From: Anaerolineales bacterium
GTDB taxonomy: Bacteria; Chloroflexota; Anaerolineae; Anaerolineales; UBA11579
DNA length: 64,000 nt
NCBI GenBank assembly: GCA_025808555.1
Contig: CP075526.1
Location: 372,001-436,000 of the forward strand
Direction of reading: 5' to 3'
Under the pieces are notes generated by a model. That model was not told the origin of the DNA. It saw nothing but the letters and a program-made list of their open reading frames with translations, and ran no database searches. Positions 8,706 through 18,414 of this stretch are shown here, piece by piece; the stretch's first letter is position 1, and every line of letters begins with the position of its first letter. Both the position numbers and the translations under genes were made by a program.

Positions 8706-11498
8706 CTAGCCCACCACGTCCATCTGGCCCCAGTTCTTGCCGACCTTCACTTCGGTCTGCAGAGGCACGCTTAGCTGGTAGGCCTTGCTCATCTCGTCGC
8801 GCACCAGCGCGGCTGTCTTGTCCAGTTCCGCCTCAGGCACTTCCAGCACCAGCTCATCGTGAACTTGCAACAGCATTCGCCCGCCCAGCTTGGCCTTGGG
8901 GAGGGCAGCATCTACGCGCAGCATGGCCAGCTTCATGATGTCAGCCGCAGTGCCTTGAATGGGGCTGTTGATCGCTTCGCGCTCCAGGCGGCTCTTGAGC
9001 ACATAGTTGGTGCCCTCTTTCAGCGCCTGGAACTGGCGCCGGCGGCCCAGCAGGGTTTCGATATAGCCCAGCTCGGCCGCTTTCTTCTTCGTACTATCAA
9101 TGTATGCACGTACACCGGGGAACTTCTCAAAGTACGCCTTGACAAAGTTCTCGGCCTCGGCCAAGGTCAGATCCGTGCTACGGGTAAGTCCAAAAGGGCT
9201 CATGCCATAGATCAAGCCAAAGTTCACAGCTTTGGCGTTGCGGCGTTGCTCACCGGTCACCTTGTCAGGCGCAATGCCCAGGATCGCCGCGGCCGTAGTA
9301 ATGTGAATGTCCTCATTGTTGCGGAAGGCGCTCAACATCGCTTCGTCCTGGGCAATGTGCGCCACAATGCGCAGCTCGACTTGAGAATAGTCCACCGCAA
9401 GCAGTTTGTGCCCAGAGGCTGCGATAAAGGCGCGCCGCACGCGGCGCCCCAGCTCAGTGCGGATGGGGATGTTTTGCAGGTTTGGTTCGCTGGAGGCAAT
9501 GCGCCCGGTCACTGTACCCGCCTGGTTGTACGAGGTATGTATTCGGTTGGTTGCCGGGTTCACCTCCAACGGCAGCGCATCCACGTAGGTGGTCTTCAGC
9601 TTGGAGAGTTCGCGATGGTCGAGGATCAGGTCCACGATCGGGTGCTGCTCGCTCATCGCTTCCAGAATGTCCGCCGAGGTTGAATATGCGCCCGAGGCGG
9701 TTTTGCGCACGCCGGGCGGAGGCGGCAGCTTGAGGCGATCGAACAACATATGAGCCAACTGCTGGGGCGAGCTGAGATTGAACTCCTCGCCTACTTGCTG
9801 ATACACCTCTGTGCCGATGCGCTCTAAGTCCTTATTGAGCTCGGCGCCCATGCCGGCCAAAAACTTTGTGTCCAGCATGATGCCCGTCATCTCCATATCA
9901 GAGAGTACGCGTACCAGCGGCATTTCGATCTGGTCAAAGATTTGCTCACCCCTGACGGCCTTCATGCGTTCGGTTAGCACGGGTTGCAGGCGCAGCACCA
10001 CTTCGGCATCCGCGGCGGCATATTCGGCCGCCTGCTGGATCGGCACCTGGGCCATGGTGATCTGCTTGCGACCCTTGCCCAGCAGATCCTGAATTTCGGT
10101 CATCTCATTGTTCAGGCGTACCCACACCAGGCCTTTGAGGCCGAGATTGCGTGAGCCGCTGTCGGCCACCCATTCGGCGATCATGCTGTCCATGCTGAGT
10201 GGCTGCACACGCAGGCCATGCCGGGCCAACACCACGTAATCAAAACTTAGGTTGTGGCCAAACTTGGGGATCTTGGGGTCGGTCAGCGGGCCTTGCAGGG
10301 CAGCCACTACCTCCTCAATGGGAAGCTGGGAGCCGAGTATGCGTTCGTGTCCGATCGGAATGTAATAGCCCTTACCCTCCTCCACTGAGAACGAGATGCC
10401 CACCAGGTCACATTGCATGTGGTTGGTGCTGCTGGTCTCAGTATCAAAGGAGATGTACTTGGCGGCGGCCAGCGTTTTGGCCAGCGCAGCCAGTGCCTCG
10501 GGCGTATCCACGACCTCTACGTCAATATCCACCGCCGGGCCACGCGGGGTCGGGTTCTCTTCGGGGAACATGCCCAGCTGGCCCAGCTTGGTGTCCTGGG
10601 GCATGTTGCCCAGCTCCAGCACGGTATTGAGCCGCTTCATCAGCGAGCGGAACTCAAGCTGGCGAAACAACTCGAGAACATCCTGAGACTTGATGTGATC
10701 GGTGCGCGCCTGTTGGATGTGAAAGTCTATATCGAGGTCAGTGACAATACGCGAAAGCTCAAGGCTCAGATCCGCTTTCTCGCGCCCGTCCTCGAACTTC
10801 TGGCGTTGGGAAGGCTTGAGCTTATCGAGATTGGCGTAAATGTTCTCCAGCGTCTTGTACTCCGCCAGCAAGCCAGCCGCGGTCTTCTCGCCAATGCCGG
10901 GGATGCCGGGGATGTTGTCAGATTTGTCGCCGATCATGGCCTTGAAGTCCACCACCTGCTCCGGCATCACTCCCAGGAATTCAAAGACATCCTGCGGCGC
11001 ATAATCTTTGCCGTCAGCCAACTGCTTGCCAGGCAGACTGACAATGATGCGCTTGTCAACAAGCTGCAGCAGGTCTTTATCCCCGGTAATGATCTTGACG
11101 CCCACTCCTTCGCCGGCCACCTTCTTGGCGATGCTGCCAATGACATCATCGGCCTCGAAACCTTCAAGCTCCAGGCGCGGAAAGTTGAACGCATCCACCA
11201 TCTCGCGGATACGCTCCATCTGCACGCGCAGATCATCCGGCATTTTTTCGCGGGTGGCCTTGTAGTCGGGGTAACGCTTATCGCGGAAGGTTTTGCCTAC
11301 ATCGAAGGCAACTGCCATGTATTCGGGGCGCTCCTGCTCCAGGATGCGCAGCAGCACCGAAGTGAAACCAAACACGCCGGCAGTGGGCTCGCCAGCGCTG
11401 GTGGTCCAGCGGCTGCTACCCGCTCCCGCGCTGGTGAGCGCAAAGTAGGTGCGGTAGGCCAGAGCATGGCCATCAATAAGATATAGCGTTTGGGGCAT
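8706..11498 (-). CDS. polA: DNA polymerase I
   Basis: Fills gaps in repair and removes Okazaki primers. At 930 aa it has all three domains. The N-terminal 5'-3' FEN nuclease (about 1-290) has LIDGHALAYRTYF and GDKSDNIPGIPGIGEKTA. The 3'-5' exonuclease keeps its Asp/Glu pair in SFDTETSS, so proofreading is probably active. The polymerase domain has motif A DYSQVELRIVAHIAQDE, motif B RRNAKAVNFGLIYG and motif C VHDELVLE. I placed the start at ATG 11498 (MPQTLYLIDG) instead of the 26-codon longer frame. A TACAAT box lies 6 nt upstream of the ATG and no Shine-Dalgarno is seen. Confidence 0.97.
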   Translation of the reverse strand: MPQTLYLIDGHALAYRTYFALTSAGAGSSRWTTSAGEPTAGVFGFTSVLLRILEQERPEYMAVAFDVGKTFRDKRYPDYKATREKMPDDLRVQMERIREMVDAFNFPRLELEGFEADDVIGSIAKKVAGEGVGVKIITGDKDLLQLVDKRIIVSLPGKQLADGKDYAPQDVFEFLGVMPEQVVDFKAMIGDKSDNIPGIPGIGEKTAAGLLAEYKTLENIYANLDKLKPSQRQKFEDGREKADLSLELSRIVTDLDIDFHIQQARTDHIKSQDVLELFRQLEFRSLMKRLNTVLELGNMPQDTKLGQLGMFPEENPTPRGPAVDIDVEVVDTPEALAALAKTLAAAKYISFDTETSSTNHMQCDLVGISFSVEEGKGYYIPIGHERILGSQLPIEEVVAALQGPLTDPKIPKFGHNLSFDYVVLARHGLRVQPLSMDSMIAEWVADSGSRNLGLKGLVWVRLNNEMTEIQDLLGKGRKQITMAQVPIQQAAEYAAADAEVVLRLQPVLTERMKAVRGEQIFDQIEMPLVRVLSDMEMTGIMLDTKFLAGMGAELNKDLERIGTEVYQQVGEEFNLSSPQQLAHMLFDRLKLPPPPGVRKTASGAYSTSADILEAMSEQHPIVDLILDHRELSKLKTTYVDALPLEVNPATNRIHTSYNQAGTVTGRIASSEPNLQNIPIRTELGRRVRRAFIAASGHKLLAVDYSQVELRIVAHIAQDEAMLSAFRNNEDIHITTAAAILGIAPDKVTGEQRRNAKAVNFGLIYGMSPFGLTRSTDLTLAEAENFVKAYFEKFPGVRAYIDSTKKKAAELGYIETLLGRRRQFQALKEGTNYVLKSRLEREAINSPIQGTAADIMKLAMLRVDAALPKAKLGGRMLLQVHDELVLEVPEAELDKTAALVRDEMSKAYQLSVPLQTEVKVGKNWGQMDVVG

Positions 11499-11504
11499 TA
11501 TTGG

Positions 11505-11510
11505 ATTGTA
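11505..11510 (-). promoter_or_regulatory. -10 box for leaderless polA
   Basis: TACAAT on the minus strand ends 6 nt before ATG 11498. With a start of transcription about 7 nt after the box, the mRNA would begin at or next to the AUG. No convincing -35 is seen. Confidence 0.5.
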
Positions 11511-11579
11511 CTGTAGGGAATGTGTGAGACTGAAGAACCATGAGCGAGCAGGAAAAAATGCCCGCCCAAAAATCAACTG

Positions 11580-12929
11580 TTACTGATTTGGAATCCCCTG
11601 GCGGTTGCGCGTATGGGCAATGAAATCGCTGACCTGCACATCGGTGGGCAGGCCGCCGTTCATTACCAGAAAACCCGGCGCAAAGAACTGGCCTGAGGGA
11701 TTATCGCGCTTCAAGCGCGGGAACTCGTCAAAGATGCGCTCAGACAAATGGTTCTCCAGCGTGTGCACAACGCTCTCCGGCGCGGTCTCAGCGGGCAGGC
11801 TCACCATCCATTGCACAAAGCCGGGCTGAAGGCTGAGATGCTCAAGGCGCCAGGCGAATGCTACACACAGCTGCGGTAGCCAGGCGGCCAGCTTCTCCGC
11901 CAAGTCGCCTTCCAAACGATGCTCAGGCAGGCGCGGGGCCAATACATACGCATAGCTCAGCAAGGCGCTACCGCCAGCGGCAGCCTGGGCGGCGGGCAGC
12001 CAGCGCACCCGCGGCTGAGCGGGAGCGGGTTCTGTCTGCGGCGGGCTGGGCGGCGTCGGGGCAACCGGGGCAGCGGCCTGCTGGCCGCGGCTGACGGCCT
12101 GTGCCGCCGGAACAGCCACTTCAGCCATGCTGGCTTCGCTGGTAACCGCCATGGCGGCGGCCATGCGATCAACCTGGCTGCGCATTTTACTAAAAGGCAC
12201 CTGGGTATCAAACACAAGCGCCAGCTTGTGTTCGCTGCCAATGGGGGTGGCATACAGCATGTAGTCGGCCTGCGTCGCTTCCAGGCGTACAAAGCGGGCC
12301 AGGTCGGCGCCCGCGTCACCGCCGTTGGAGACGGCGGCGGCCAGCTCTTCGGCGGCGGCGCGCGGCAGTTCGCCGGCGTAGGCCCAAAGCTCAGCCCCGC
12401 GGGTGATCAGCGCGGCCTGGGAGGCAGACTCCAGTGAAAGCTGGGCCAAGTGCTGGGCAGACAGCTTGGTGTCTGCCAGCCACGCAGGCGTAGAGTGGGC
12501 AGCGGCCTCCGTAGGCTTAGCTGCCACTGGGGCGTTGCCATACTGGGCCTTGGGAGCGGCTTGGGCAGCGTGCAGCGGGCCGTAGAGTTTCTCGAGCGCG
12601 GCGACCAGGTCCGGCAAATAGAAGGGCTGCGAAAGCACAGCCCGCGCGCCCACATGCTCCCAGCCATCCGCAGGAGTATCTTCGGTCAGTATCAGGATCA
12701 GCTTGAAGTCAGGGGCAATCTGGCGCAGTTGCTCCAGATAGCCGGCAATATCCATATCCGCAAAATCAGTATCCAGCACCAGCAGATCCAACCCACTGGC
12801 CGCGGCGGCTAACGCCTGGGCAGGCGAGGACAACAGCTGCGGCTGCAGCTTATCCGCATCGGCAAGCAGCTGGCGAACCATTTCGCCAAAGCCTTTGCTG
12901 GGCGTCAGAATGATGGCTTGCTTGGTCAT
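11580..12929 (-). CDS. Receiver-like / roadblock-like / Y1-transposase-like three-domain protein
   Basis: A 449-aa protein of unusual make-up. Residues 1-117 look like a response-regulator receiver with the phospho-acceptor Asp (LLVLD, D53), but the conserved Lys is Gln (LSQPF). Residues about 165-262 resemble a roadblock/LC7 domain (ALITRGAELWAYAGELP). A Pro/Ala linker follows. The C-terminal 120 residues follow the plan of IS200/Y1 transposases: QPGFVQWMVSLP in place of the DHVHLLV strand, ENHLSERIFDEFPRLK for the KGRSSR helix, FFAPGFLV for the LWAPGYFV strand, and VSDFIAHTRNRQG for the tyrosine helix. The HUH histidines and the catalytic Tyr are all replaced, so it cannot be a nuclease. 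ATG 12929 is chosen; TTG 12938 has the better-spaced AGGGG. Function unknown. Confidence 0.6.
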   Translation of the reverse strand: MTKQAIILTPSKGFGEMVRQLLADADKLQPQLLSSPAQALAAAASGLDLLVLDTDFADMDIAGYLEQLRQIAPDFKLILILTEDTPADGWEHVGARAVLSQPFYLPDLVAALEKLYGPLHAAQAAPKAQYGNAPVAAKPTEAAAHSTPAWLADTKLSAQHLAQLSLESASQAALITRGAELWAYAGELPRAAAEELAAAVSNGGDAGADLARFVRLEATQADYMLYATPIGSEHKLALVFDTQVPFSKMRSQVDRMAAAMAVTSEASMAEVAVPAAQAVSRGQQAAAPVAPTPPSPPQTEPAPAQPRVRWLPAAQAAAGGSALLSYAYVLAPRLPEHRLEGDLAEKLAAWLPQLCVAFAWRLEHLSLQPGFVQWMVSLPAETAPESVVHTLENHLSERIFDEFPRLKRDNPSGQFFAPGFLVMNGGLPTDVQVSDFIAHTRNRQGIPNQ

Positions 12930-13007
12930 AGACGTCAAAAATAGCCCCTAGGGGGGCAAGTAAGTATAAGTCAAACCCGGCTGGTTTTAACTACCCAGTT
13001 TGGGTGG

Positions 13008-14613: not shown

Positions 14614-15333
14614 CTAGCGGCCCAGCGCCTTCATGCGCAGTTCTTCCACTTTGTCGGCCAGCCAGCCCAGGCGCACGCGGTGCCACAACAGGGTCAACGT
14701 GAACACGGTCAGGGCCAGCAGGGTGAACAGCAGGGTCCACACCATGGGGCGGGTCATATCGAAGCCGCCCTCAGCCGTGGCGCTGCCGCTGCCGATCACC
14801 ACGGGATGCAGCGTGCGCCAGATGCGAATGGAGAAGAAAGTCAGCGGGACAGTGAACGCAGCCAGGATGGCGTAGATGGCGCCAAAACGGGCACGGCGCT
14901 GCGGGTCATCAATGCCCTGGCGCAGCAGCATATAGGCCATATAGACCAGGATGAGGATGGTGAAGGTGACCACGCGCGGGTCCCAGGTCCACCATGTATT
15001 CCAGGCCGGGCGGGCCCAGATGGAGCCGGTGGTGACGCAGATGAAAGCGAACACCAAGCCGATCTCCACACAGGCCACAGACAGCACGTCCCACTTCTTG
15101 TGCGGGCGCAGCAGATAGATGATTCCGGCCACGGCGGCAATAATGAGCACCACCATGGTTACCCAGCCGCTGGAAGCGTGAAAATAAAACACACGCTGCA
15201 CATTGCCCATCACGCGCTCCATGGGCGCATAGAAGAAAACTATGTAGATGCTGCCCGCCATAAGCAGCGCTGAAAGAACATCCAGCACGCCCAACAAGCG
15301 GGGTTTGGGGTCTAGCGAAGTTGATGATGCCAT
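14614..15333 (-). CDS. ccmC: Heme exporter / cytochrome c biogenesis protein CcmC
   Basis: A 239-aa protein with six predicted membrane helices that passes heme to CcmE. The periplasmic tryptophan-rich WWD-type motif is visible as NTWWTWDPRVV. The conserved external His residues lie in VFYFHASSGWV and in the loop before the sixth helix (WRTLHPVVI). It lies between ccmB and the ccmD-like gene, with 6 nt to ccmB, in one operon. Confidence 0.93.
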   Translation of the reverse strand: MASSTSLDPKPRLLGVLDVLSALLMAGSIYIVFFYAPMERVMGNVQRVFYFHASSGWVTMVVLIIAAVAGIIYLLRPHKKWDVLSVACVEIGLVFAFICVTTGSIWARPAWNTWWTWDPRVVTFTILILVYMAYMLLRQGIDDPQRRARFGAIYAILAAFTVPLTFFSIRIWRTLHPVVIGSGSATAEGGFDMTRPMVWTLLFTLLALTVFTLTLLWHRVRLGWLADKVEELRMKALGR

Positions 15334-15339
15334 TGAAGC

Positions 15340-16014
15340 TTACTCCTCTACGATGAAGTCAAAGAACATAAAGCCCAACGCGGGCATGATGAGACCATAC
15401 ACAACCAGAATGTTGAGGCTGGAGAGGGCGTATTCCATACCCAGGCCGTTGATGAAGGCGCTGCTGGCCCGTACCGAGGCCACCAGCACCGGCAGCACCA
15501 CGGGGAACAACAGCACCGGCAGCAGCAATTCACGGCTGCGGGCCTGGGCCGCCATGGCGGCCAGAAGCGTGCCTGCAGTGCAAAAGCACCACGAACCCAG
15601 CACCAGCACCAGCCACAAACCCGGCTGTGCCAGGCTCATGTTGTAGAACACAGCATAAAGCGGGAGGGTGAAAATTTCCACAACCAGCATGAAGAATAAG
15701 TTCGCAAGGGTTTTGCCAAAGTAAATGGCGCTACGCTCAACCGGGGCCAACAGCAGGCCGTCCAGCGAGCCGCGCTCACCTTCAGTGGCCAGGGTGCGGT
15801 TGAGCCCCAGCGTGCCGGCAAAGGCGAAAGTGGTCCACAGCACGCCAGCGGCGATCTGGCGGCGGGTGAGCATGTCGATATCCAGCGTGAACGCAAAAAT
15901 AAAGATGACCAGCACCACGAACACCAGCATGGCGCTCACCATTTGGCGGCTGCGCCACTCGGCGGCCAGGTCTTTGCGCATGATGGCCCACACGGCTGTG
16001 AAGTAGTTAGCCAT
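15340..16014 (-). CDS. ccmB: Heme exporter protein CcmB (ABC permease)
   Basis: A 224-aa, six-helix membrane subunit of the CcmAB ATPase that releases holo-CcmE. Its N-terminus (AIMRKDLAAEWRSRQMVSAML) and the central GERGSLDGLLLAPVERSAIY match the family. It overlaps the end of ccmA by 8 nt, so the two are translationally coupled. The length is usual. Confidence 0.93.
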   Translation of the reverse strand: MANYFTAVWAIMRKDLAAEWRSRQMVSAMLVFVVLVIFIFAFTLDIDMLTRRQIAAGVLWTTFAFAGTLGLNRTLATEGERGSLDGLLLAPVERSAIYFGKTLANLFFMLVVEIFTLPLYAVFYNMSLAQPGLWLVLVLGSWCFCTAGTLLAAMAAQARSRELLLPVLLFPVVLPVLVASVRASSAFINGLGMEYALSSLNILVVYGLIMPALGFMFFDFIVEE

Positions 16015-16711
16015 TGGCGCGCTCCAGAGCCTGCTGATAGTGCGCAGGCAGCCTGGCGCCCAGCTTGGCCTTGGCCAGCGTGCCGGCGTTGCGGCCAGCG
16101 GCCAGCAGCACGGCGCGCTGCGTCAGGCCGCCCACCCTATCGAGATCATGGCTGGCGATCAGCACCGTGGCGCCGGCCCGTGCCTGGGCGCGCAGCACAT
16201 CGTCCAGCGCATCGGCAGTTTGCAAGTCGAGAGCGCTGTGCGGCTCGTCGAGCAGGAGGACGCGCGGGCGATGCAGCAGCGCCCGCGCCAGCGCAAGGCG
16301 CTGCAACATCCCGCGCGAATAACCACGCACCGGCTCGCGGCGGCGTTCCAGCAAGCCCACCAGCTCCAACAGTTCATCGATGCGGGCAGCCGCGGCTGAC
16401 ACAGCGTACAGGCGGGCAAAGAAGTCCAAATTCTGGTCAGCGGTCAGGTCCTCATACAGCAGCGGCTGGTGGCCCAGATAGCCCAGCTGGGCGCGGGCTG
16501 CAGCTGCCTGCTTAGGCAGCTGGCAGCCAGCCACCTGGACGCGGCCAGTCGTTGGCTGAGCCAGCCCAGCCAGCACGCGCAGCAGGGTACTTTTGCCGGC
16601 CCCGTTGGGGCCAAGCAAGGCCACCAGCTCGCCCTTGCGCACGCGCAAATTCACGCCGTGTAAAGCCAGGCGGTATCCATAACGCTTGCTGAGCTGGCTG
16701 ACAGTGATCAT
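16007..16711 (-). CDS. ccmA: Heme ABC exporter ATP-binding protein CcmA
   Basis: A 234-aa ABC ATPase. Walker A is GPNGAGKST (about 35-43). The signature is YSRGMLQRLALARAL, a variant of LSGGQ typical for CcmA. Walker B is VLLLDEPHSALD. It pairs with CcmB to drive heme transfer from CcmC/D to apocytochrome through CcmE. It overlaps the upstream cytochrome gene by 4 nt and ccmB by 8 nt. Confidence 0.93.
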   Translation of the reverse strand: MITVSQLSKRYGYRLALHGVNLRVRKGELVALLGPNGAGKSTLLRVLAGLAQPTTGRVQVAGCQLPKQAAAARAQLGYLGHQPLLYEDLTADQNLDFFARLYAVSAAAARIDELLELVGLLERRREPVRGYSRGMLQRLALARALLHRPRVLLLDEPHSALDLQTADALDDVLRAQARAGATVLIASHDLDRVGGLTQRAVLLAAGRNAGTLAKAKLGARLPAHYQQALERANG

Positions 16712-18414
16712 CGGTCCTTCATCATACGGCGCAGCTGGGCCTTGAGGGCGGCGCGCTGGCGCGTGTATTGGTTCTGGGAAACATCGCCAGCCTCAAAGCG
16801 CGCATCAAGTCGGGCGATGCGGGCCAGCACTTCGTCCGGCCCGGCTTGCATGCGGCGCAGCCACAGCCAAGTGAAGCCAACCGCCAGCGTGAGTCCAGCC
16901 AGCCCCACCACCACGCCGTCGTTGGCCAGCAAGGCTTGCCAGCCACCGCCGCCTTGCGGGTTGGGCCCGCGCAGCTGCAGTTCAGCGGTGTCACCCGCAG
17001 AATAGGCCTGGCTAGAGAGGTAAGCCCGATAGGAGGCATCCTGGATCTGCTGTTCGCCCGCTTTGGTGAAATCAGCATTGGCCAAAGTCACGCCGCCGTG
17101 TTGAACCAGCACAGCAACCGAGCGCACGGGCAGGTTAAGCGCCAGCGGCAGGTCCAGGCTGCGCGTGTACGGCATCTCATAGGCAAACAAGAGTTGGTAG
17201 GTCTGCAAACCGGGCAACACAGCGCGCAGATCGCCAAAACCGTTCTGGGTCGGCAGGTAGCGCTCGCGGAACACGCCCTCATTAAAGGCCAGGTCGCCCG
17301 CGCCCTCCGGCAGGTCATATAGCAGCACTGGCGCGCCTTCTTGCGTAGGCGTAACGGCGCGCGTGCCAATGTTGGAGACGAGATACTGCTGCACCACGCG
17401 CACAAAGCCCGGGCGCTCGAATTCCAGGATCAGGGTCAGACGCTCAACTGCCAGCTGGCTGGTATCGGATGTTGTTTCGTAAATGATGATAGGCTGGCTG
17501 AACTCAGTCTGGCCCTCATTCAAAAATTCGGAGAAATAGCTGAGCCCCAGATAGTCCACCGCGGCAAAGAAAGTGCGCCCCTCGGCTACAGGCACTTCGT
17601 CAAAGGCAAAGCGCCCATTGGCGCCCACTGTGGCGGTCTGGCTGTGTACCAAAGTCTGGCCCTCGTAGCCAAACAGGGTCACTTGCAGGCCAGGCGCCAG
17701 TTCACCATCCGTGCCATCTTGAACGCGACCGCTGAACGCACCAATAGCGGCGGGCTCATCCCCGCCGGCTGGCGCCTGCGGCTCAGCGCCCAATGAGATG
17801 GCCTGCACATACGAGCCCAGCGCCAGCAGTTCCGCTGAGGCCAGGCTGGGCGCCGCCTGTTCGATGGCGCCGATAATGTCGTTGCGGCTGTAAGCCGCCA
17901 TCTGACGGATATCGGCCAGCGGCAACGCGGCTTCGATCGCCTCCTGATGGCGAGCAAAGAGTTGCTCGCCGCCTTCCGCCGCCAACGGATCCTGACTCAG
18001 CGAGAATGTATAGGCCAGCACATCCCAGCGCTGCTGCAGACTGAGCTGGCTGGCGAACGGCGGCATGAAATTATCCAGATTGCCCTGGGTAATGATCTGG
18101 TACCACTCGGCCGGGCTGGCGGCATCCGCTCGCTCGGCTACGCCGAGTGGGGCGGGCTGCACGGGCAGCATGTTGGCCTGGCCGCCATCGCCCAGGCCTG
18201 TGGCGCCGTGGCACGGCGCACAGCTCTGGGCGTAGATGGCCGCGCCCGCAGTAATGTCTGCCGGCGCGGGCGGGTACTCCAGCGGAACGGGGGTCGAGTC
18301 GACGCCGCTGATGATCGCATTCGGCGGCGGGGTCACGTCGCCGGCCAGCGAGAATTCGCAGGCGGTCAGCAGCAAGGCCAGCAACGGCAGCCAGCGCAGC
18401 AAACGGGTGCTCAT
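16708..18414 (-). CDS. Membrane-anchored cytochrome c lipoprotein inside the ccm operon
   Basis: A 568-aa protein. A lipoprotein signal ends in LLTAC (C19). A class I cytochrome c domain follows (about 50-140) with CAPCH (65-69) as the only heme site and NFMPPF supplying the likely axial Met. Next are a helical segment, a beta domain (about 225-300) like a carboxypeptidase-regulatory fold, and another beta-rich region. Near the C-terminus is a membrane helix (VVVGLAGLTLAVGFTWLWL) and a short SHOCT-like helical tail. It overlaps its neighbours at both ends. It is probably a client of the operon and an electron carrier on the outer face of the membrane; its partner is unknown. Confidence 0.75.
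   Translation of the reverse strand: MSTRLLRWLPLLALLLTACEFSLAGDVTPPPNAIISGVDSTPVPLEYPPAPADITAGAAIYAQSCAPCHGATGLGDGGQANMLPVQPAPLGVAERADAASPAEWYQIITQGNLDNFMPPFASQLSLQQRWDVLAYTFSLSQDPLAAEGGEQLFARHQEAIEAALPLADIRQMAAYSRNDIIGAIEQAAPSLASAELLALGSYVQAISLGAEPQAPAGGDEPAAIGAFSGRVQDGTDGELAPGLQVTLFGYEGQTLVHSQTATVGANGRFAFDEVPVAEGRTFFAAVDYLGLSYFSEFLNEGQTEFSQPIIIYETTSDTSQLAVERLTLILEFERPGFVRVVQQYLVSNIGTRAVTPTQEGAPVLLYDLPEGAGDLAFNEGVFRERYLPTQNGFGDLRAVLPGLQTYQLLFAYEMPYTRSLDLPLALNLPVRSVAVLVQHGGVTLANADFTKAGEQQIQDASYRAYLSSQAYSAGDTAELQLRGPNPQGGGGWQALLANDGVVVGLAGLTLAVGFTWLWLRRMQAGPDEVLARIARLDARFEAGDVSQNQYTRQRAALKAQLRRMMKDR

Follow-up and report, generated by a model that had tools for sequence, protein, structure and literature searches.

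Exaptation of IS200/IS605 proteins is well known for TnpB and IscB, as in Cas12, Cas9 and RNA-guided repressors, and, to our knowledge, the known host versions of the transposase TnpA retain their active site. A review of recruited mobile elements discusses TnpB and IscB and leaves TnpA unmentioned (PMC8987985). A survey of Y1 proteins, which discarded unusually long fusions, treats HuH and Y as features shared by all classes, and the Gln four residues after the nucleophilic Tyr (Tyr+4) is metal-binding in TnpA (PMC6006769). On the signalling side, fusions of a receiver to a roadblock domain have been reported (PMC4316618). In the literature searched, which comprised non-subscription titles, we found no description of a receiver-roadblock-Y1 architecture. 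Here we describe a protein with this architecture, encoded next to polA within a 64,000-nucleotide stretch of DNA (the window), in which a Y1/TnpA-like domain without a complete active site forms the C terminus of a roadblock-type signalling protein.

The open reading frame proposed at this position in the original prediction is present and lies on the minus strand, which that prediction had not given; its ATG is at 12929 and its stop codon at 11580-11582. A full-length AlphaFold model built with 28 sequences resolved a receiver (residues 1-118), a roadblock topology (149-262), a disordered segment (266-320) and a Y1 fold (323-443). The linker that precedes the Y1-like domain is very variable in length in an alignment of relatives.

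Table 1. Features of the fusion gene and its surroundings (window coordinates; residue numbers refer to the 449-aa product).
Feature	Position	Strand	Basis or remark
CDS, 449 aa: degenerate receiver, roadblock, disordered linker and catalytically dead Y1/TnpA-like domain	11580..12929	minus	
Receiver-like domain, residues 1-118	12576..12929	minus	AlphaFold fold; Z 18.0 to Spo0F 1srr
Roadblock/LC7 (MglB-like) domain, residues 149-262	12144..12485	minus	Topology and MglB PDB matches
Low-complexity Pro/Ala-rich linker, residues 263-320	11970..12143	minus	Predicted disordered, pLDDT <50 for 266-320
Y1/TnpA-like domain, residues 321-445	11595..11969	minus	Profile and predicted fold
F371, first HUH His position	11817..11819	minus	TnpA alignment
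Q373, second HUH His position, followed by family-specific W374	11811..11813	minus	TnpA alignment
F436, nucleophilic Tyr position	11622..11624	minus	TnpA alignment
T440, metal-binding Gln position (Tyr+4)	11610..11612	minus	TnpA alignment
polA, DNA polymerase I, 930 aa, next gene downstream	8706..11498	minus	Linkage conserved
Gap of 81 nt between fusion gene and polA	11499..11579	minus	Terminator-like stem at 11541-11568
Promoter-like TTAAAA-16-TATACT 5' of the ATG	12963..12990	minus	Consensus match only

The C-terminal domain is recognizable as a Y1 transposase by both profile and fold. PF01797 (Y1_Tnp) matched the window protein at residues 324-437 with 35.5 bits (E 1.3e-8; gathering score 23) and matched all 28 relatives, while the NCBIfam IS200 match (31.4 bits) fell under the equivalog cut-off of 55. 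TnpA chains ranked first in a phmmer search of the PDB (2fyx, E 0.0011), and a profile of 37 family members retrieved eight TnpA sequences from the PDB (E 3e-10 to 3e-20) and nothing else significant. A PHROGs search returned one transposase family and two weak matches of unknown function. AlphaFold modelled the Y1-like domain alone with a pLDDT of 94.5, and all significant Foldseek ranks for this model were ISDra2, Sulfolobus and IS608 TnpA and related chains (TM 0.82 and rmsd 2.2 for 2fyx). VIA-align likewise placed 2fyx (DR_0177) first, at Z 16.2 (rmsd 2.2 over 125 residues, 21% identity), with other TnpA at 14-16 and the best unrelated fold at Z 8.3. The original prediction had specified beforehand that an unrelated fold or the lack of a PF01797 match would count against a Y1 (IS200) domain; a match above the cut-off and a TnpA fold were found, which supports its interpretation. 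A chance match or misannotation is ruled out by the Pfam score, the fold and the occurrence of the architecture in 76 genomes.

The active site of this domain has been lost and its pocket remodelled. In the window, both HUH His and the Tyr are replaced (Table 1), as had been predicted; across the family the claim does not extend to the Tyr, which is retained without the His pair in 27 of 61 fusion domains. None of the 61 carries the complete set of two His and one Tyr, and by inspection members from other orders also have an incomplete active site. The Tyr+4 position is Gln in 3 and Thr in 44 of the 61 members. An active nuclease is ruled out: the window protein has neither HUH nor the Tyr or Gln, and every relative has an incomplete site. 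Only one member keeps both HUH His, with Phe in the Tyr position (L023:829-2370, genome G054), and it represents a natural intermediate of loss. Around the old metal site, where the consensus is now Tyr/Phe-x-Gln-Trp, a new set of residues is conserved (Q373 in 50/61, W374 in 55/61, Tyr or Phe at 371 in 52/61), and the site is thus remodelled and conserved, unlike simple decay. Eleven columns are invariant among 28 sequences. The invariant Arg R441 was dropped as a candidate new feature of the metal site because Arg is also found there in an ordinary TnpA (L108).

Structural positions of TnpA (Y326, P332, L339, W416, G419 and Y420) are mostly retained among the 61 domains, while conserved polar positions are gone (His327 and Arg335 in none, Lys392 in two). 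Two motifs had been read as TnpA hallmarks in the original prediction and proved otherwise: K-x-x-S-R is not retained, as the window has Glu392 in place of its Lys and most relatives have Arg, Glu or Asp there (Lys in 2/61), and RQG is a motif of the fusion family, not of TnpA. The domain has also lost much of its positive charge: mean net charge is +5.6 for 15 active Chloroflexota TnpAs and +1.1 for the fusion domains (range -7 to +6; Mann-Whitney p 1.5e-5, a descriptive value that ignores relatedness). The window domain has a net charge of -4 (pI 5.7) and domains from other orders reach -7, while several members of the window's order are mildly basic (+4 to +6). Judged from sequence, this loss of basic charge argues against ordinary single-stranded DNA binding in this lineage; a local basic patch could still be present.

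A whole-protein search found a match in 46 of 61 genomes, and profile searches of the class and the phylum Chloroflexota, combined with domain checks, found a roadblock followed by a Y1-like domain in one open frame in 76 distinct genomes (four named records duplicating searched genomes were removed from the 76). Fifty-seven of these genomes belong to the window's order and 19 to other families of the class (f34, f48, f49, f60, f62, f69 and f70). The survey across Anaerolineae that had been proposed as a check yields an old, class-wide fusion present over several orders. In a tree of 88 Y1 domains, all 61 domains from fusions grouped with 8 dead copies that stand alone, in one clade apart from 19 ordinary TnpAs (support 100/99); the tree has 127 columns and limited resolution, leaves out most f34 and f60 rows, and has long branches for the rows from other orders. 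The fused domains placed in this tree have a single origin and are spread over several orders. A recent IS insertion into the gene is ruled out by the single clade and by the presence of the fusion across several orders. Separate fusion events in other orders are unsupported, since these domains belong to the same clade; most f34 and f60 rows lie outside that tree.

The full-length fusion is single-copy in nearly every genome, at a conserved chromosomal locus, and its Y1-like part is a C-terminal domain, not the autonomous multicopy tnpA ORF of a mobile element. Family f11 additionally has stand-alone dead Y1 copies of 144-219 aa, up to four per genome and two of them in tandem (L112:2551-2982, L112:3733-4176, L113:3758-4414 and L114:3983-4528, all in genome G703; also at L116, L117, L118 and L119); in the tree they arise within the fused clade, and they lie away from polA. 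In Nei-Gojobori comparisons with four members of the genus, dN/dS ran from 0.04 to 0.18 in the Y1-like domain and from 0.04 to 0.15 in the roadblock; the receiver gave 0.13-0.25 and the linker 0.16-0.72. These values are rough because dS is near 1. The Y1-like domain was thus similar to the roadblock and, in the more divergent pairs, well below the linker. Within the genus, the Y1-like domain is under strong purifying selection. Occurrence in 76 genomes, a single clade, purifying selection and the lack of any complete active site bear out the description of the domain as domesticated and catalytically dead.

The receiver-like and roadblock-like domains that had been predicted in front of the Y1-like domain are both present. 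The receiver part adopts a (beta-alpha)5 fold with Z 18.0 to Spo0F (1srr) in VIA-align, and scored 17 bits against PF00072, below the cut-off of 30.2. The phospho-acceptor D53 is present in the window and in 25 of 28 relatives; the acidic pair after strand 1 is absent in the window (T9, P10), and Q101 takes the place of the conserved Lys there and in the closest relatives (Lys in 14/28). By these residues, the receiver here is best called a pseudo-receiver. The roadblock has an a-b-b-a-b-b-b-a topology in the AlphaFold model, and the top 8 PDB matches of its profile were all MglB (E 0.0019-0.027), with a separate weak MglB match as well. Pfam Robl_LC7 gave no match on the window protein and matched one of 28 relatives (E 0.0011). 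When the roadblock profile was compared with three roadblock ORFs encoded in the same genome, the match was weak (probability 16%, E 0.0016), a result that the MglB matches supersede. With the full model, Foldseek listed Rag GTPases at low TM across 300+ columns, a mixed alignment that we did not take as proof; receiver chains took up the whole VIA-align list for that model, which is uninformative on the roadblock. The same genome encodes a canonical receiver-roadblock protein without Y1 (L229:4082-5080; Response_reg 73.8 bits, Robl_LC7 22.8 bits). It also encodes an MglA-like small GTPase (L230:1480-2025, at ~885.7 kb of the genome) flanked by a CheY-type ORF and by a 277-aa ORF that resembles DUF4388 on visual inspection.

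In 60 of the 76 genomes, from at least two orders, polA is the next gene downstream on the same strand (gap 7-509 nt, median ~100 nt); the linkage is absent in the other 16. Because the gap in the window contains a terminator-like stem, co-transcription with polA is not assured. The genes upstream of the fusion vary between families. Genomes without the fusion mostly have unrelated genes before polA, the exceptions being family f2 and the class outgroup G069, in which a receiver-roadblock protein without a Y1 domain sits upstream of polA. In a roadblock tree the f2 versions fall inside the window's order with weak support, which suggests that these proteins lost the Y1 domain. In place of Y1, the f2 proteins (L134:375-1502, L136:4244-5554) carry a tail of repeated basic KTGEL-like units. 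Several features of the wider neighbourhood were also seen. In most genomes of the order polA is followed by a gene for a TPR protein of 770-790 aa (14-locus cluster; L072:13210-15540); in the window this third gene does not adjoin polA. In one genus member (L073:8683-10980, genome G010) a MetE-like methionine synthase ORF lies between the gene and polA, which is 2.7 kb downstream. The window further contains, by eye, a cytochrome c maturation-like run (14614-18414, minus strand; ABC ATPase and membrane proteins of CcmB-like and CcmC-like type) behind a cytochrome c-type protein.

The identity of the domains is firm, and we infer a mechanism as follows. An IS200/IS605 TnpA would have been fused once to the C terminus of a roadblock-type signalling protein, early in the Anaerolineae-type Chloroflexota lineage. 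The Y1 domain lost its nuclease chemistry and would have been kept as a folded binding module that neither cuts nor joins DNA. The receiver, which here lacks the acidic pair and Lys, may serve as a docking or pseudo-receiver domain, and the roadblock would dimerize and contact a small Ras-like GTPase, for example the MglA-like protein encoded elsewhere in the genome. The dead TnpA, derived from a natural dimer-former, could provide the dimerization and partner-binding output through the remodelled aromatic/Gln/Trp pocket at the former metal site, and the product may be made together with DNA polymerase I and act on the polymerase or its regulation. An output module that binds DNA, RNA or protein, as suggested in the original prediction, is likewise an inferred role. 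We give about an even chance to our reading, in which a roadblock signalling protein tied to polA carries the domain as an exapted, non-catalytic binding or dimerization module. Several points weigh against it. The linkage to polA, missing from 16 of 76 genomes, might come from joint expression with no contact between the products, and in the window a terminator-like stem separates the two genes. A local basic patch may still bind DNA despite the lower net charge; some domains in the order are mildly basic. The 27 of 61 members that keep the Tyr may also still make some use of it.

Since the protein is linked to polA, a role on DNA stays open. The dead Y1 domain might bind single-stranded or hairpin DNA or RNA uncut and report gaps, flaps or lagging-strand hairpins to the roadblock and receiver, tuning DNA polymerase I. 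This is a possibility that we hold to be on the unlikely side. The linkage in 60 of 76 genomes speaks for it, as do the retained DNA-binding fold, the mildly basic members, and the behaviour of active TnpAs, whose substrate is single-stranded DNA at the replication fork and which are believed to touch the sliding clamp (PMC6006769); it must be set against the loss of His327, Arg335, Lys392 and the metal ligands and a net charge of -4 in the window and down to -7 in other orders. In its boldest form, with the dead transposase fold as a structure-specific DNA/RNA reader wired through the roadblock to both a small GTPase and DNA polymerase I, we consider it improbable; if true, it would constitute a route from DNA state to GTPase signalling that is not known in bacteria and is fixed across a whole class.

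The linkage to polA might instead be inherited gene order, with the protein acting as an MglB-like regulator of a small GTPase in polarity or surface motility and Y1 as a dimer clamp. MglB is indeed the nearest match of the roadblock profile, the genome has a gene for an MglA-like GTPase next to a CheY-type gene at another locus, fusions of receiver and roadblock have been described before (PMC4316618), and the linkage is missing in 16 of 76 genomes. The linkage nevertheless persists across orders while the upstream genes have changed, and versions without Y1 also sit upstream of polA. We judge inherited order to be a doubtful account of the locus. That the domain is a functionless transposase fossil, a chance fusion in decay, as the window domain's lack of any catalytic residue might suggest, is contradicted by the dN/dS of 0.04-0.18, the 11 invariant columns in 28 sequences and the one old clade over several orders, and is hardly credible.

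On the preferred reading as a binding or dimerization module, TnpA itself appears to have given up catalysis long ago to become such a module, and today it is a conserved component of a core-genome locus shared with DNA polymerase I. It offers a clear, testable case of a transposase becoming a pseudoenzyme, and it points to an unstudied regulator or partner of PolA in a large, little-cultured class. There is also a warning for annotation: 'IS200 transposase' calls on proteins of ~370-1150 aa in these genomes are not transposons.

The fusion domain can be compared with four described systems. TldR, an RNA-guided repressor derived from TnpB, shows the other protein of IS200/IS605 elements reused after nuclease loss (PMC13418256); TldR comes from TnpB and not TnpA, and its fold and mechanism are unrelated. 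TnpA_REP/RAYT proteins are likewise Y1 proteins kept by the host that are not insertion sequences (PMC6006769, PMC8266576). In RAYTs, which act on REP hairpins, HUH and Tyr are retained, whereas the fusion lacks HuH, Tyr and the class 2 Y-NP context; the fusion domain resembles the RAYT structure 4er8 distantly (Z 8.1). MglB and receiver-roadblock fusions share the roadblock fold, with MglB as the best PDB matches; in contrast to them, the protein described here has a third, Y1-derived domain, does not reach Robl_LC7, has a degenerate receiver, and sits in a locus with polA rather than mglA. Finally, IS200/IS605 TnpA (ISDra2 2xm3/2xo6, DR_0177 2fyx) shares the whole-domain fold, the order of strands and helices, and the Trp, Gly and Tyr of the LW..GY strand. 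Unlike TnpA, the fusion domain lacks HUH, Tyr, the metal Gln and Lys392 and has little or no net positive charge, and the protein carries a receiver and a roadblock, occurs as a single full-length copy with no sign of mobility, and neighbours polA.
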